A model generated the notes under the pieces. The model saw only the letters and a program-made list of their open reading frames with translations, had not been told where the DNA came from and ran no database searches. From a bacterium (GTDB lineage Bacteria; UBP7; UBA6624): 22,098 nt of DNA. This document shows positions 2,237 through 19,766 of the stretch, piece by piece (positions within the stretch are counted from its first letter, which is position 1; each line of letters opens with the position of its first letter). A program made the position numbers and the translations under genes. The stretch is taken from NCBI GenBank assembly GCA_014384545.1, contig JACNFQ010000058.1, positions 1 to 22,098 of the forward strand, written 5' to 3'.

Positions 2237-2306
2237 CTTGACCCCTTTTGGTGTGGAGCGCCACCTAGACTCGTCCCCTCAAGGGGGTGGTAGGGCTAAA
2301 CGTCGT

Positions 2307-3623
2307 ATGGAGAACAGGTACACGCAAAAGGGAGCACTGAAGCGAATAGCTAACTTGCTGGGGCTGACGATGACTGATTTGGCGAAAAAGTTGGGGGTTA
2401 GTAGATCGTTCCTTTATGCCCTAAAGGATGGGAAAAAAGGTGCTGGGCACAATCTCGCCCAGCGGCTCCATGAAATCTCGGGGTTGGCTTGGGAAGATAT
2501 CTTCAATGGAGGTCCAGGCTCGTTTTCCACTTCGATCCCTGCTACTTCAGTAGAAGTCCCCACCATGGAGTTGCGTTATTTGGAGGGATACAAGCTTCAG
2601 GCAATACACCTAGATACGTTTTCTTTGCTGGCTTGGAAAACCCAATGGGGGGTCGCTACAGGACGAGCCCATCCTGATGGCACTTTCGAGTTGGGACCTG
2701 TGCTAGCCCAAAGAATTGAAGGGGATAATACGGAGTTTGCGTTCTGTGCTCAAGGTAATCTGATGATCTCCAACACAACCAAGGGGAGGATCTGGGCTTT
2801 CTCACCAGAGGAACTTGATTCTCTTGAAGTGTGTGATTTGACGGGGTATGCGTATTTGAGCGATATTCGATCCCCCAATTTGGAGTTTGATGTTCGGTCG
2901 CGCTGGGATGTAACCCAGATGGGTTGCCTCATTGGGGACCATTGGCTCTTGAAACGGGGGAGTGGCAAAGACCGCGATCGACTCGTCCTCTTTGATCCCA
3001 CAACTCAAAAGGAGAGATTGCTAGACAAAGGGTACTCCCAATTCCCGACCGTCTTTGTGCGGAACGAATGGTGGTTATACCAAATGAACTTGCGCGGGGG
3101 CGACCCCCAATGGGGACCTCATATCATCAAGGCTCTTGACCTTACGAATCTAGAAGCAAGCCCCAAGATTGTGATGGAATGTCCCAAAATGGGTCCCCTA
3201 AACTATTCAGCTAAGTCGGGAGGTTGGTGGGCTTGGTTGGACAGGACTGAACACGCCATAAGAGCATGTTGGGGCGATTGGCCCGACCCCAACTGCGCTG
3301 AAACAGTCGCACACCCTGGCGAGGGGAGATACAAGAGGTTTCGGAATGTCACATATGGGCAATGGCACTGTGCCGTTGATTGTGATATCTTTGGGCGACC
3401 TTGGGTGGTCTTCCCCAATACGGCACCCCCAGGGTTGGTGGGTGCCGTACGAAACACCAAGGGAAAATGGAAGAGTTGTATCTTGGATCCCGGGGTTGGA
3501 AAAGGAATATTCCCCGCCATCCGCTGTTGGGGAAACGGTGCCATTGATGTGTGGCACCATGCCCACTTAGAAGGTTCGGTACGCCATACCCGTTGGCATG
3601 CAGACGATATACCCCCTCCCTAA
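2307..3623 (+). CDS. XRE-type HTH protein with C-terminal propeller-like domain
   Basis: From the ATG at 2307 the protein has 438 residues. Residues about 11-66 form a Cro/C1-type helix-turn-helix (MTDLAKKLGVSRSFLYALKDG), expected to bind DNA. A short linker leads to about 350 residues rich in Trp, Asp and Gly with roughly seven similar segments, for example FSLLAWKTQWGVATG, MGCLIGDHWLLKRG, VRNEWWLYQMN, KSGGWWAWLD, DIFGRPWVVFPN and CWGNGAIDVWHH. This looks like a seven-bladed beta-propeller, but I cannot name a family. No signal peptide or membrane segment is visible, so it acts in the cytoplasm. An in-frame TTG at 2238 would add 23 residues but lacks a ribosome site and lies beside the operator-like repeats; the ATG follows GGTAGGG. 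It diverges from the lipoprotein gene and probably regulates it or itself. Confidence 0.7.
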   Translation: MENRYTQKGALKRIANLLGLTMTDLAKKLGVSRSFLYALKDGKKGAGHNLAQRLHEISGLAWEDIFNGGPGSFSTSIPATSVEVPTMELRYLEGYKLQAIHLDTFSLLAWKTQWGVATGRAHPDGTFELGPVLAQRIEGDNTEFAFCAQGNLMISNTTKGRIWAFSPEELDSLEVCDLTGYAYLSDIRSPNLEFDVRSRWDVTQMGCLIGDHWLLKRGSGKDRDRLVLFDPTTQKERLLDKGYSQFPTVFVRNEWWLYQMNLRGGDPQWGPHIIKALDLTNLEASPKIVMECPKMGPLNYSAKSGGWWAWLDRTEHAIRACWGDWPDPNCAETVAHPGEGRYKRFRNVTYGQWHCAVDCDIFGRPWVVFPNTAPPGLVGAVRNTKGKWKSCILDPGVGKGIFPAIRCWGNGAIDVWHHAHLEGSVRHTRWHADDIPPP

Positions 3624-14721: not shown

Positions 14722-15306
14722 ATGGAAAGCCCCCCCACATTAGCCGAAGAGATTCAAAATGAACTCTGCATTGACCTCCGCCACCTTCGTGATTGGTGGG
14801 GGGCAGATAGTGTGATGGCATCCCGTACCCTTTGCACTTTGGGTCTGTCCCGAATGATCCAACTCATCTTGGATAACGAGCGGGAAAAAGTATTATCTTC
14901 CCCTGACCTTTGGCTGATGCAAGACGCATCTGCTGCTACAGACATCTCCCCATACCCTGTGGACTTTGACCGCCTTCTTGAATGGCTCCGTGCCCAATCA
15001 ATAACCTCTGGTCTTGCTCCTGTGGACCATCCCTTGTACCAGTTTTATCAGAAATTTCTCCCTGCTCTTTCAGAGTGGGGACGATTAGAGGCAGCCGATG
15101 TAGGGCTAGCACCCCCTGTTGAACCCTCAGGAAAAGGAGGGGGATTCTTTGGTAAGTTGTTCTCTAGAGCAGAACCCGAAGAAGAGCGGTTGCCCCTACG
15201 AGAGATTCAAGACATTCCCGGGTTTTTTGCGTTCTGGAAAGAAGTGGACGGGTGGAGAAACCCCACAGAGAATGAGGAATCGCCCGAAAAAGGGAATTCC
15301 GAATGA
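14722..15306 (+). CDS. HdrC-like protein lacking Fe-S cysteines
   Basis: The 194-residue protein aligns with heterodisulfide reductase subunit C. SRMIQLILDNEREKVLSSPD and LWLMQDASAATDISPYPVD match the HdrC stretch R-x-I-I-R-L-V...EEVLSS..IWLC, C-x2-C-x2-C-x3-C-P and G-V-D. The four cluster cysteines are replaced by Met 66, Ala 69, Ala 72 and Ser 76 with spacing and the following Pro kept. The first cluster region (about 16-30) retains only Cys 16. RLLEWLRAQSITSGLAPVDH and FLPALSEWGRLEAADVGL match the C-terminal helix region. Thus it should not carry [4Fe-4S] clusters. A low-complexity tail rich in Gly and Glu follows. It is coupled (ATGA) to the HdrB-like gene. Electron transfer is unlikely; a scaffold role is inference. 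Confidence 0.6.
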   Translation: MESPPTLAEEIQNELCIDLRHLRDWWGADSVMASRTLCTLGLSRMIQLILDNEREKVLSSPDLWLMQDASAATDISPYPVDFDRLLEWLRAQSITSGLAPVDHPLYQFYQKFLPALSEWGRLEAADVGLAPPVEPSGKGGGFFGKLFSRAEPEEERLPLREIQDIPGFFAFWKEVDGWRNPTENEESPEKGNSE

Positions 15307-16217
15307 AAGTCACCTATTTTCCCGGGGGGCTACTCACCTCCAATTACAAGGACTTTGAGAACTCGGTCTCTCGCTGTTTGCGACGATTGGGTGCCGATTA
15401 CGAGTTGATTCATAACTGGAGTGGAACCGGTGATGAAGGGACTTATTTCAACGACCCCCTTGCCGCCCTAGCTCTCCCTTTACGCAACTTGGTAATCGGC
15501 GAAAAATCGACACGGAATGATCTCTTCTTTGTCCCTGACCCCCTTTTGTACCAGACTTTTGAGCGTGCCGTCCAACGCCTTGAGGAACCTCGGAATGACG
15601 CCCTTCGTCAACGGATGGTAGACACCTTGGGTCTCCCCTACAGTGGCAGGATGCGACCCGTAAACATCCTCCACATGCTGAAGTCTCACACAGCGGGTAA
15701 GAAATTTGACAGACTCATTATGCGTCGTCTTGAAGGTGGCGATGAAGAAAACCCCACGCCCCTACGGGTTGCTGTCCATACACCCCCTGAGTTGATGCGC
15801 CCCGTAGAACGGTTGAGAATCGACCGACCAGAGAGCCCTGTTCTTCTCAAGAATCTCCTCCAAAAAGCAGGAGCCCACTGTGTGGATTGGGCGTCTGCTT
15901 CTCGTTGGCTGGGAGGGTATTTGGGTGAGATTGACCAAGCATCTGCACTTGCCTTGGCAAAACCTGTGATTGAGGATGCACATGTTGCTGGGGCTGAGGT
16001 GATCGTCACTCTAGAACCTCGAGCCTTGCAAACTCTTGACCAATACCAAAAGGAAGCTATGGGAACCCTAGGACTCCAAGGAGACCCCTTACCGATCATG
16101 TACGCTACCGATTTGCTCAACTTGGCGCTAGGTGTGGGTGCGGCAACTCTTGGTACTGGGTTCCATATCACCTCTTGCAATCCCGTCTTTGAGAGGATTG
16201 GATTGACGATTCAGTGA
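15303..16217 (+). CDS. HdrB-like protein with both CCG motifs lost
   Basis: The 304-residue protein aligns along its length with heterodisulfide reductase subunit B (two CCG domains). In domain 1, VTYFPGGLLTSNY has Gly 9 for the PGC cysteine, HNWSGTG has Gly 41 and Thr 42 for the Cys pair, and FVPDPLLYQTF has Pro and Leu for C-x2-C. In domain 2, VAVHTPPELMRP has Pro for the Cys, then IDRPESPVLLKNLL and GAHCVDW are conserved, Trp 202 and Leu 203 replace the Cys pair, and LEPRALQTLDQYQ has Glu 238 and Ala 241 for C-x2-C. LPIMYATDLLNLALGV matches the C-terminal helix. The fold is probably kept but the noncubane clusters cannot form. Only three unrelated Cys remain. Its stop overlaps the next GTG. 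Confidence 0.65.
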   Translation: MKVTYFPGGLLTSNYKDFENSVSRCLRRLGADYELIHNWSGTGDEGTYFNDPLAALALPLRNLVIGEKSTRNDLFFVPDPLLYQTFERAVQRLEEPRNDALRQRMVDTLGLPYSGRMRPVNILHMLKSHTAGKKFDRLIMRRLEGGDEENPTPLRVAVHTPPELMRPVERLRIDRPESPVLLKNLLQKAGAHCVDWASASRWLGGYLGEIDQASALALAKPVIEDAHVAGAEVIVTLEPRALQTLDQYQKEAMGTLGLQGDPLPIMYATDLLNLALGVGAATLGTGFHITSCNPVFERIGLTIQ

Positions 16218-16990
16218 CATCCCTCCCTTCGGGGGATTTCTTACTCTTTCTTGGCACAGGCGGAGGACGCTCGGCGATGGTTTCGGGCATGCGTGGAACC
16301 GGAGGGTTGTTCCTCCAAACAGAAGAAGTCCGTCTCGTTATTGATCCGGGTCCCGGCGCCCTTGCAGCTCTTCACCAATACGACATTGACCCTTGGGGAC
16401 TGGATGGCATCTTGATTACACATCTCCACATGGACCATGTAGGAGATGCCAATGTGCTCCTAGAAGCTGCCACCTCAGGAGGACATAAGAAACATGGCGT
16501 ATTAGCAGCACCTCTTGAAGCTCTTGAAGGCCCCCAACGCGTTATCTACCGATACCGCCGCCCCTTCCTCAAGGAGGTCGTCGTTTGGGAAGAGAACAAG
16601 GTCGTACAAATAGGAGATGTCCAAGTTGAGGCAGTGGCAAGGTATCTTCATGGGGGATTAGAGACTTTCCGACTCCACTTTACGGTCGGAGAGAAAAAGG
16701 TCGCTCTTTTTACCGACGGAGCCACGACCACAGGTGCACGACGCATGGCGGGGGCTGATATCGCGATTCTTCACTGCTTGCTCCCTATCCCCCTTCCCTC
16801 CATTGACCATTTAGACCCCACCCTTTGTGCCCAGATCCTCCAAGAAACGAAACCCTCACAGTCCTTTTTGACGCATTTTGGGTCAGGAATACTCAAGAAG
16901 AAAATCTCTGAACAGATTGCCCACACTTGCGAGAAAGAAACAGGTGTTCCTTGCCTTGCTGCGCGGGATGGGCTTATCGTTCCGCTATGA
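16214..16990 (+). CDS. Metallo-beta-lactamase-fold hydrolase
   Basis: The 258-residue protein has the MBL fold signature: FLGTGGGR near the start, VIDPGPGAL, then THLHMDHVGDAN (His 70, His 72, Asp 74, His 75) for two metal ions, a later YLHGG, ALFTDGATTTG and FLTHFGSG supplying further ligand candidates. It should be a cytoplasmic metal-dependent hydrolase, closest in pattern to RNase Z-like or phosphodiesterase-type members. Substrate is unknown. GTG at 16214 overlaps the stop of the HdrB-like gene (GTGA) and its own stop overlaps the glcD-like ATG (ATGA). Its place between Hdr-like and oxidase genes suggests a shared pathway, but this is context only. Confidence 0.75.
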   Translation: MTSLPSGDFLLFLGTGGGRSAMVSGMRGTGGLFLQTEEVRLVIDPGPGALAALHQYDIDPWGLDGILITHLHMDHVGDANVLLEAATSGGHKKHGVLAAPLEALEGPQRVIYRYRRPFLKEVVVWEENKVVQIGDVQVEAVARYLHGGLETFRLHFTVGEKKVALFTDGATTTGARRMAGADIAILHCLLPIPLPSIDHLDPTLCAQILQETKPSQSFLTHFGSGILKKKISEQIAHTCEKETGVPCLAARDGLIVPL

Positions 16991-18326
16991 ATCTAGCACC
17001 ACTCCGAGAGTCTGTTCGGGGAGAACTCCGCGATGATGACAGTATCCTAGCGACCTACAATCGGGATGCCTCCCGTCTGAAAGCAAGGCCTTTGGGCGTC
17101 TTTTGGCCTCTAGATACAACCGATGTGCATTCCGTGGTTCATTGGGCGAGAGAGAGATCTATACCCCTCGTTCCGCGAGGGGCAGGAACAGGTCTCGCAG
17201 GGGGGTCGGTCGGGCAAGGCTTGATTGTAGATACCGCCCGCCTGACCCAAATAGAGATTCAAGAAGATAACCTGCTGGCGATTGTGGGAGCAGGCGTTAT
17301 CAATACCCACCTCCAAGATGCCCTCAAACCCTACCGCCTCTTTTGGCCCCCAGACCCCTCCAGCCATCGCATCAGTTCATCGGAGGAAACCTAGCAACAA
17401 ATGCTGGGGGGCCTTCTTGCCTGAAATACGGTGTCACACGCCATTGGGTATTGGGGGTAAGAGCTGTCTTGGGCACAGGAAAAGAGATTCGGACAGGGAG
17501 TCTTTCGCACAAGGATGTAGCAGGGTATGACTTGACCGGTTTATTGGTTGGTTCGGAAGGGACATTGGGTATCCTGACCGAAGCGACCCTACGATTGGCG
17601 CCTATCCCTGAAGCGAGAGGGACAGTCGTTGCAACCTTCCCATCACTAGAAGACGCAGCTTTGGCTGTTCAACAGGTGCGACAAGCCGGCATCACGCCCG
17701 AAGCGATGGAGTTTATGGACGGGGCTACCCTTTCCGCTGTAGATGACGCATTTTCGTTAGGGCTACAGAATGTACAAGCACTCTTGTTGGTTGGATTGTC
17801 TGGCCATCGCCTCGCCGTTGCCCAAGAGACTCAAGATGTATATCGTCTCTTGGAGAAAGGGTCTCTTCGTGTAGACCTAGGGCTAGAGAAAAATGAGATT
17901 GAACGCCTGTGGCTTGCTAGACGGTCCGCTTTTGGCAGCTTAGCAAGGAGGGCGGGCAACCTTTGGGTAGAAGATATCTCTGTGCCCCTTTCTTCTCTTG
18001 CTACGATGGTAAGGAAGATTGACTTGATTGCCCAAAAACATGACCTCTTGGTTGCGACACTTGGGCATGCTGGAGATGGAAACCTCCATCCTCAGTTCTC
18101 GCTGAGAGGAGAACCCGATGAAGAAGATCGCATCAAGGAAGCGATTGAGGAGATTGTCTCCCTAGCCGTGTCCTTGGGGGGCACCCTGACGGGGGAGCAT
18201 GGCGTGGGGCAGGAAAAGAGAGACTTGCTCCCTTCGGCACTTGACCAGGGCGCCTACAAGACGATGGAAGAGATCAAGAAGGTCTTTGACCCTTTGGGGA
18301 TTATGAACCCCGGAAAAGTCCTCTAG
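16987..18326 (+). CDS. glcD: GlcD-like FAD oxidase subunit, interrupted by a -1 shift
   Basis: An FAD-linked oxidase (PCMH-type) of the glycolate/D-lactate dehydrogenase family. The first frame from ATG 16987 holds LVPRGAGTGLAGGSVG and ends with FWPPDPSSHR, then a stop at 17392-17394. The second frame carries QFIGGNLATNAGG, LKYGVTR, DVAGYDLTGLLVGSEGTLG, LATLGHAGDGNLHPQF, GTLTGEHGVGQEK and GIMNPGKVL. Family sequence has five residues between P-D-P-S-S and I-G-G-N; inserting one base between about 17362 and 17376 restores this exactly. The protein would then have about 446 residues, close to family length. Neither half alone should be active. No convincing slippery site is present, so a sequencing deletion or real mutation is likely. 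The next gene encodes the GlcF-like partner. Confidence 0.82.
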
Positions 18327-18327
18327 G

Positions 18328-19353
18328 GTGAACATTGAGGATTGTGTCGGTTGTGCCCTGTGTCAACCTGTCTGTCCCACTTTCCAAGAGACTCGGCTGG
18401 AGGGAGCAAGTGCCCGAGGAAAAATCGCCTTTTTGGCTGCTTATTCCCGTGGAGAACTCTCCGAAACAGACCCCCATTGGGGAGAGACCATGACCCTATG
18501 CACCTCCTGCTGGGCTTGTGAAGAGGCGTGTCCAGCTGGCCTTTCCATAAAAGACCTCTTCTTGGAATGGAGAGAGAATCATCCCCCCACCCAATGGGAA
18601 CGCCACCTAAGAATGTTGCTCCGTTTGGCCACCATTACGCCCTTAGGAGTTCGAACCCTCCTACCCCTCTTCTTCTTGCCACTTCGAGGTTTGAAAAGTA
18701 GATGGAAAGCGCCTTTGCCCGTCACCTCAATCCACCCACCAAAAAGCTTCTTCTTCCCCGGGTGTTTCTCACGATACGCTGTGCCAGATGCTGCTACAAG
18801 TTCCTACAAGAGAGTGCTCTCTTTAGACTCGTTCAAAGATGTGGCTGTTGTTCCCTCTGGTCTCTGTTGCGGAAGTGCACTCATCAACAATGGATTATTG
18901 AAAGAACTCCCTGCCACCGCCACCCCCTTTCTTGAGTGGCTAGAAAAGAGAAACCCCTTGGCTGTCATTACCGCTGACAATACCTGTGGTCAGACCTTGC
19001 GCACCCTCCACCACTCTCTTCCCTCTCACCTAGAAAAGCGTTGGAAACGATTTGCTCCTCGCTTTCAAATTCTCCAAGAGATTGACCCCCACTTCCCCCC
19101 CAAAGAGGGATTTCAGAGTGCTTGCCATAATGAGCATCGTTGTGACAAGCCCGAAGCAACCTGTTGTGGATTTGGCGGAAGTTTTAGGTGGCAACACCCC
19201 TCTCTTTCTAGGAGGATTGGTAAGAGGAGACTCCGCCACTTAGGGTTCCATGAGGGAGGTGATATTCGGGTAGAAGGTCCCGGTTGCCTTGCTCACCTGC
19301 GGAGACTCGTCCCGCCTTCCCAACGGGCGAGAATAAGACCATGGACAGATTGA
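18328..19353 (+). CDS. glcF: GlcF-like iron-sulfur oxidase subunit
   Basis: The 341-residue protein is the electron-accepting partner of the FAD oxidase. Two complete C-x2-C-x2-C-x3-C-P sites are present (Cys 6, 9, 12, 16 and Cys 58, 61, 64, 68) for [4Fe-4S] clusters. A first CCG domain reads FFFPGCFSRY, LCCGSAL and DNTCGQTL; a second reads SACHNEH, ATCCGFGGSFRW and GPGCLAHL. The second domain is unusually short between CH and CCG, and the whole protein is shorter than typical GlcF (about 400). Start is GTG at 18328, one base after the stop of glcD. Substrate might be glycolate, D-lactate or another 2-hydroxyacid; unresolved. It keeps its cysteines, unlike the HdrB/HdrC-like pair upstream. 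Confidence 0.8.
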   Translation: MNIEDCVGCALCQPVCPTFQETRLEGASARGKIAFLAAYSRGELSETDPHWGETMTLCTSCWACEEACPAGLSIKDLFLEWRENHPPTQWERHLRMLLRLATITPLGVRTLLPLFFLPLRGLKSRWKAPLPVTSIHPPKSFFFPGCFSRYAVPDAATSSYKRVLSLDSFKDVAVVPSGLCCGSALINNGLLKELPATATPFLEWLEKRNPLAVITADNTCGQTLRTLHHSLPSHLEKRWKRFAPRFQILQEIDPHFPPKEGFQSACHNEHRCDKPEATCCGFGGSFRWQHPSLSRRIGKRRLRHLGFHEGGDIRVEGPGCLAHLRRLVPPSQRARIRPWTD

Positions 19354-19766
19354 GGGTGTTGGTGCTTTCTAGGAGGCTTCCTCCTTTGGGGGGTGAACCA
19401 GGCAAACGAGCGTGGATAGTCGCCCAATGGCTGGCAAAAAACCCCCAACTCCAAACGATTTGGATTGCCCCAGGTCCTCCGGAGCATAAGACCCGTATTA
19501 TTTTGGGTCCCGATGATCAATCAGGCGTTGAGATAGCGTATATCCGTATGCCCCTTTTCCCCTTCATGGATCCGCTTTTTCTCCTTCCATCCCTCGTTGA
19601 ACGGGGCATCCACTTTGCCCAAGGTGCCCAACTGGTAGCAACCCCCCAAGGGGATGCCCTTCTTGCCGCAGCAGTCGAGGGGATTTCTCCCTCTTGCCCC
19701 CAATTTCGGTGGAATCTAAAGAAACCACTCAAAGGTTGGCCTTTACCCTCCATGGAGGGAGGATAA
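19341..19766 (+). CDS. Hypothetical protein between glcF and moaA
   Basis: From the ATG at 19341 (overlapping glcF by 13 bases) the protein has 141 residues. It begins LRVLVLSRRLPPLGGEPGKR, followed by LAKNPQLQTIWIAPGPPEH; this resembles the N-terminus of GT-B type glycosyltransferases (P-P-x-G-G...R) but the protein is far too short for a complete one. Later parts (FAQGAQLVATPQGDALLAAAV) show no known motif. It is not a MobA, whose G-G-x-S-x-R-M-G-x-x-K signature is absent. Its last codons hold the GGAGGGAGGA ribosome site of moaA, so the gene end seems natural. The lack of homologous motifs might also reflect a shifted frame. Function unknown. Confidence 0.5.
   Translation: MDRLRVLVLSRRLPPLGGEPGKRAWIVAQWLAKNPQLQTIWIAPGPPEHKTRIILGPDDQSGVEIAYIRMPLFPFMDPLFLLPSLVERGIHFAQGAQLVATPQGDALLAAAVEGISPSCPQFRWNLKKPLKGWPLPSMEGG

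Follow-up and report, generated by a model that had tools for sequence, protein, structure and literature searches.

A putative heterodisulfide reductase-type complex stripped of nearly all iron-sulfur cluster ligands in one bacterial family

Two overlapping genes in the window (the whole stretch of 22,098 nucleotides analysed, contig JACNFQ010000058.1 of assembly GCA_014384545.1, from a bacterium of the GTDB lineage UBP7, UBA6624) encode homologues of HdrC and HdrB in which the cysteines at all 18 canonical positions have been replaced. Together with the proteins of a second locus in the same genome they very probably (roughly 0.9) make up a cluster-free Hdr-Flx complex. Hdr complexes are the textbook iron-sulfur electron wires of anaerobes, in which electrons pass from FlxA to HdrA and on to HdrB, and HdrB cleaves disulfides at noncubane clusters. 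Primed names (HdrC', HdrB', HdrA' and so on) denote here the cysteine-less homologues of the canonical subunits; G000 is the source genome, G001 belongs to a second genus of the same family, and G002 is a further relative (62% complete).

The HdrC'-HdrB' Gene Pair

HdrC' (14,722–15,306, plus strand, 194 aa) and HdrB' (15,303–16,217, plus strand, 304 aa) are both unbroken frames that share a 4-bp ATGA overlap. HdrB' matches TIGR03288 along its full length (E = 3.1e-17, residues 3–299 on model positions 2–290), with a score of 62.8 bits where the curated cut-off is 345, and also matches the solved HdrB chains in the PDB (E = 4e-12), while the Pfam search gave no PF02754 match. HdrC' has no match in the Pfam and NCBIfam searches; profile-profile comparison with canonical HdrC (hhalign) gives E = 1.7e-10 over residues 45–123, and BLAST against a small database gives E-values as low as 3e-11. 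The AlphaFold model of HdrC', built template-free from two cysteine-less sequences, resembles over residues 2–112 the HdrC chain 8rwn_C of the Elp-Hdr complex (Z 10.5, 99 residues), the best unrelated chain scoring only 3.6; its C-terminal half is of low confidence and the Foldseek match to the HdrC chain reaches only E = 1.1. The model predicts that HdrC' retains the fold of HdrC. The model of HdrB' is unusable (mean pLDDT 37), and its assignment relies on the profile, the PDB chains, the alignment and the ortholog in G001; alignment and ortholog likewise support HdrC'. An earlier sequence-only reading had proposed this homology and the intact frames, and both are borne out, the homology by the profiles, BLAST and the HdrC' model, Hdr matches having been obtained in the profile searches.

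Ligand columns were defined by alignment with two canonical operons (genomes G042 and G013). All eight cysteine sites of HdrC' are replaced, L22, W25, A28 and M32 in the first set and M66, A69, A72 and S76 in the second, so that in G000 the two CxxCxxCxxxCP motifs read L/W/A/M and M/A/A/S. The sequence-only reading had listed the second set correctly and had overlooked the loss of the first cluster. HdrB' has lost its common cysteine columns at 10 of 10 positions (G9, G41, T42, L81, Q84, P162, W202, L203, E238, A241) and with them the CCG motifs, which in HdrB bind two noncubane [4Fe-4S] clusters. The list given earlier for this protein agrees at G9, G41/T42, P162, W202/L203 and E238/A241, and what it called "Pro and Leu" corresponds to L81 and Q84. 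The GlcF-like protein of the window (18,328–19,353, plus strand), which lies outside the complex, serves as a control: family search and motif check confirm that it retains its ligands, with both CxxCxxCxxxCP motifs and the CCG motifs present.

The same overlapping pair occurs in G001 (contig PBAU01000009.1, isolate SP4379), with 47% identity between the genera for HdrC' and 50% for HdrB', and there too all 8 and all 10 columns are replaced. It was not found in the 62% complete genome G002. The one close relative found is therefore as ligand-free as the pair in the window and does not keep the cysteines, in line with the earlier view that the folds had been retained without the clusters: the pair is ligand-free in two genera and the HdrC' fold is predicted to be kept.

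Surroundings of the Pair

In both G000 and G001 an aminotransferase gene precedes the pair, and a small ORF, moaA, moaE and moaC follow it. The small ORF belongs to no known family in either genus (window 19,284–19,766; G001 locus L034, 11,512–11,946). Elsewhere in the window, a 461-aa ORF (2,238–3,623) shows a weak N-terminal HTH_3 match followed by about 400 residues that match no Pfam family. The GlcD of the window is split over two frames (16,927–17,394 and 17,343–18,326), each holding part of FAD_binding_4; the split (16,927–18,326) is put down to a frameshift or an assembly error.

The sequence-only reading had suggested that the pair alone is a scaffold for the MBL-fold hydrolase (16,214–16,990, plus strand, identified by Pfam) or for a GlcDF oxidase, whose genes adjoin it in the window on its own strand. 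In G001, however, a NUDIX-like gene follows the pair where G000 has the MBL, GlcD and GlcF genes, and the searches of the G001 and G002 genomes turned up no GlcF or other CCG protein, so that the proposed partners are not conserved. The frame change in the window's GlcD and the presence elsewhere in the genome of partners with the same cysteine loss also argue against such a role, which is very improbable, and the HdrC'/HdrB' proteins are better viewed as part of the larger cluster-free complex. They are not the isolated pair first supposed, since equally cysteine-less HdrA-MvhD, FlxC, FlxB and FlxA are encoded elsewhere in the same genomes.

The Second Locus

A canonical HdrA query finds one match in each of G000, G001 and G002 (E 4e-74 to 2e-51). 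This HdrA' is fused to an MvhD/FlxD domain: its top NCBIfam match is NF040770 (HdrA2; E = 2.6e-134, 449 bits against a curated cut-off of 1100), and FlpD matches with E = 1.7e-22. FlxB' is HydB-like (HydB/ShyB, E = 1e-22 to 7e-21) and FlxA' is AsrB/PyrK-like (E = 2e-15). The order HdrA'-MvhD', FlxC', FlxB', FlxA' is identical in the three genomes, where the operon lies directly behind E3 and tatC (G000, locus L053, 3,615–8,675 on contig G000:C16, minus strand; G001, L054, 7,015–12,030; G002, L055, 3,418–8,435). In G000 and G001 the E1, E2 and E3 genes of a 2-oxoacid dehydrogenase and tatC precede it on the same strand; the stretch read in G002 has E2, E3 and tatC before it. The tatC frame of G000 overlaps that of HdrA'. 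Near the contig end in G002 (G002:C15, L055, 223–1,065) the E2 frame is joined at its start to membrane-protein-like sequence, probably a misjoin.

The canonical operons of G042 and G013, which belong to other families, run HdrC-HdrB-HdrA-MvhD-FlxC-FlxB-FlxA. Subunit by subunit, each cysteine-less protein has its match there, with the BLAST match for HdrC restricted to one of these operons. Every subunit type of FlxABCD-HdrABC is thus encoded in G000, HdrC and HdrB in the window and the rest in L053. No second, canonical Hdr was found in these genomes, each of which has one HdrA; the genomes are incomplete, and a canonical Hdr could therefore be absent from the assemblies only.

Cysteines and Cofactor Motifs Across the Complex

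Over seven domains, 81 cysteine columns are common to the two canonical complexes, although some of these may not be ligands, and G000 keeps 4 of them (77 are gone). Three of the residual four are in FlxB' and one is in a stretch of HdrA' that aligns poorly; the Fe-S ligands that every FlxABCD-HdrABC subunit carries are for the most part missing here. Five FlxB' cysteines (L053, 4,424–5,443; C130, C139, C140, C313, C319) are conserved in 3 of 3 genomes, two of which occupy new positions next to a canonical one, and a rearranged metal site is therefore possible in this subunit. These cysteines speak for a reading in which clusters are partly retained through other ligands or a rearranged site and electrons take a shorter route. 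The replacements among the 81 are mostly G, L, A, S and T, with His once, Asp three times and Glu three times, and inspection reveals no cluster-capable set in HdrA', HdrB', HdrC', FlxC', MvhD' or FlxA', which makes partial retention improbable.

HdrA' keeps, in the alignment, the GGGVAG motif for FAD, and in G000 E and K still align with E356 and K409, which lie at the flavin N5 of HdrA (PMC12054007); Cys203, Cys521 and Cys534 are conserved. In FlxA', by contrast, an alignment judged by eye and unscored suggests the loss of the SSPxR motif and of the glycine-rich nucleotide loop, so its flavin and nicotinamide nucleotide motifs seem to be gone. These features bear on the main rival to the favoured platform reading, a flavin-only oxidoreductase in which the FAD of HdrA', perhaps with Cys521/Cys534, would carry out two-electron hydride or thiol chemistry, for example on the dihydrolipoamide of the adjacent E2/E3, the other subunits shaping the substrate site. 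The retained FAD motif, E356 and K409, the three cysteines and the gene order E1-E2-E3-tatC-HdrA' all speak for it; the apparent loss of the FlxA' motifs, which leaves no evident hydride donor, speaks against it. Such an enzyme is possible, if rather doubtful.

Selection, Integrity and Origin

Strong purifying selection acts on the operon: HdrA', FlxC', FlxB' and FlxA', compared between two members of a single genus, have dN/dS values of 0.02–0.04, a comparison that is partly saturated because dS for the operon genes is 0.9–2.5. The E3 value was left out owing to a frame error, and for HdrB' and HdrC' the comparison is the 47–50% identity between genera. Conservation reaches 56% at the former cysteines and adjacent positions, against 49% elsewhere (Fisher p = 0.008), a p-value that is generous since alignment columns are not independent, and an effect that is uneven among subunits. 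This slight excess in the former ligand loops would also suit a flavin-only enzyme. The HdrA' trio forms one clade with support of 100/100 and a long stem in a tree whose root is untested, which is consistent with a single remodelling event.

All the genomes are incomplete metagenome assemblies, and pseudogene decay, misassembly or a misreading of the genetic code might be invoked for the missing cysteines. Unbroken ORFs and a common gene order in three assemblies, together with the low dN/dS, argue against decay or misassembly. A changed code fits no better, because the former ligand sites carry varied sense codons and the family's other Fe-S proteins keep their cysteines (GlcF, MoaA and SdhB in G000; SdhB and LipA in G001). 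This whole group of explanations is extremely unlikely, and the loss is particular to the complex and reflects neither a missing Fe-S pathway nor an altered code.

The bacteria of this small group respire oxygen; COX1 of a heme-copper oxidase and SdhB are encoded in G000, G001 and G002. HdrB-like proteins serve SDH in some organisms; a role for HdrB' as SDH membrane anchor was rejected, since SDH has ordinary SdhC/SdhD-like membrane genes in these genomes. Contig G001:C15 (L046), which carries a second, different SDH/FRD set and TonB/ExbD-like genes, gives a Bacteroidota-like impression and is a possible contaminant of the G001 assembly.

Distribution

In 386 genomes sampled across the domain, an HdrB profile at E <= 1e-25 finds only G000 and G001, and among the loci fetched from a looser search of a largely overlapping sample, every protein except that of G001 is canonical. 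The FlxC and HdrA profiles, run on about 386 sampled genomes, likewise lead outside the family to canonical proteins alone at the loci inspected; the phylum sample comprises three genomes and the survey covers a small fraction of bacterial families. With the HdrA profile the HdrA' trio scores 1490–1647 bits and the next match, a canonical protein, 433. The 27 canonical HdrA proteins inspected have 27–38 cysteines and three CxxCxxCxxxC motifs each, against 6–10 cysteines and none of these motifs in the trio, and normal motifs are present in all of the best-scoring HdrA, HdrB and FlxC relatives that were inspected outside the family. A pattern scan of 84,980 species recovered G001 alone, its two short patterns being liable to miss distant members, and a scan with a single protein found no cysteine-less relative. 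Two collections carry little weight here: viral contigs yielded no cysteine-less member, and the plasmids two records annotated as HdrB-like. In the literature searched, which excludes preprints and most subscription papers, no cluster-free Hdr is described, in agreement with the earlier claim that the pair is undescribed.

Comparison with Known Systems

The Desulfovibrio NADH dehydrogenase/heterodisulfide reductase FlxABCD-HdrABC (Ramos et al., 2015, as cited in PMC5296606) shares with the present proteins the seven subunit types and the HdrC-HdrB overlap as a pair, and the four operon genes stand in the same order as in G042 and G013. It differs in that here 77 of the 81 cysteines are gone, HdrA is fused to MvhD, the genes lie at two loci, the FlxA motifs are seemingly lost and a heme-copper oxidase is encoded in the same genomes. 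The fused MvhD-type domain recalls HdrA2B2C2 of Methanosarcina acetivorans (PMC5296606; NF040770), from which these proteins depart in the missing ligands and in a score far under the 1100-bit cut-off. In archaeal Hdr clusters a molybdopterin-oxidoreductase-like subunit without a cofactor site has been proposed to be structural after ligand loss (PMC12054007); there one subunit is silenced, whereas here nearly all are. Gene order also links Hdr-like proteins to lipoate in the sHdr-lipoate sulfur oxidation system (PMC6067878), which however uses dedicated lipoate-binding proteins, the neighbours here being E1-E2-E3 of a 2-oxoacid dehydrogenase.

Proposed Function and Implications

Nearly all iron-sulfur sites of a FlxABCD-HdrABC-type complex would have been removed by ligand replacement, with the subunits presumably still able to assemble. 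Without the clusters there would be no electron path from FlxA through HdrA to HdrB and no disulfide cleavage by HdrB; one-electron transfer between subunits would be impossible, and electron bifurcation with it. The FAD of HdrA' would be the only likely redox centre, perhaps joined by one rearranged metal site in FlxB'. Taken as a whole, this explanation is likely, provided that the role may be either that of a platform or that of a flavin enzyme. The preferred version, a platform that bears flavin and is otherwise redox-silent, is put forward tentatively; judging from gene order, it may serve the neighbouring lipoyl-dependent dehydrogenase. Selection seems to retain the complex for a function different from the known one. 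The broader proposal is that, in one lineage, a bifurcating metalloenzyme complex gave up nearly all its clusters and acquired a new function for which selection maintains all subunits together, as a whole-complex pseudoenzyme or a flavin-only enzyme; this is somewhat more likely than not.

If true, the case, from bacteria that possess a terminal oxidase, would show that an Hdr-type complex can be put as a whole to a task not dependent on an electron chain. It would provide a natural experiment in which the structural and redox roles of the Hdr complex are separated, and it cautions that Hdr/Flx gene names alone do not justify inferring bifurcation or sulfur metabolism.
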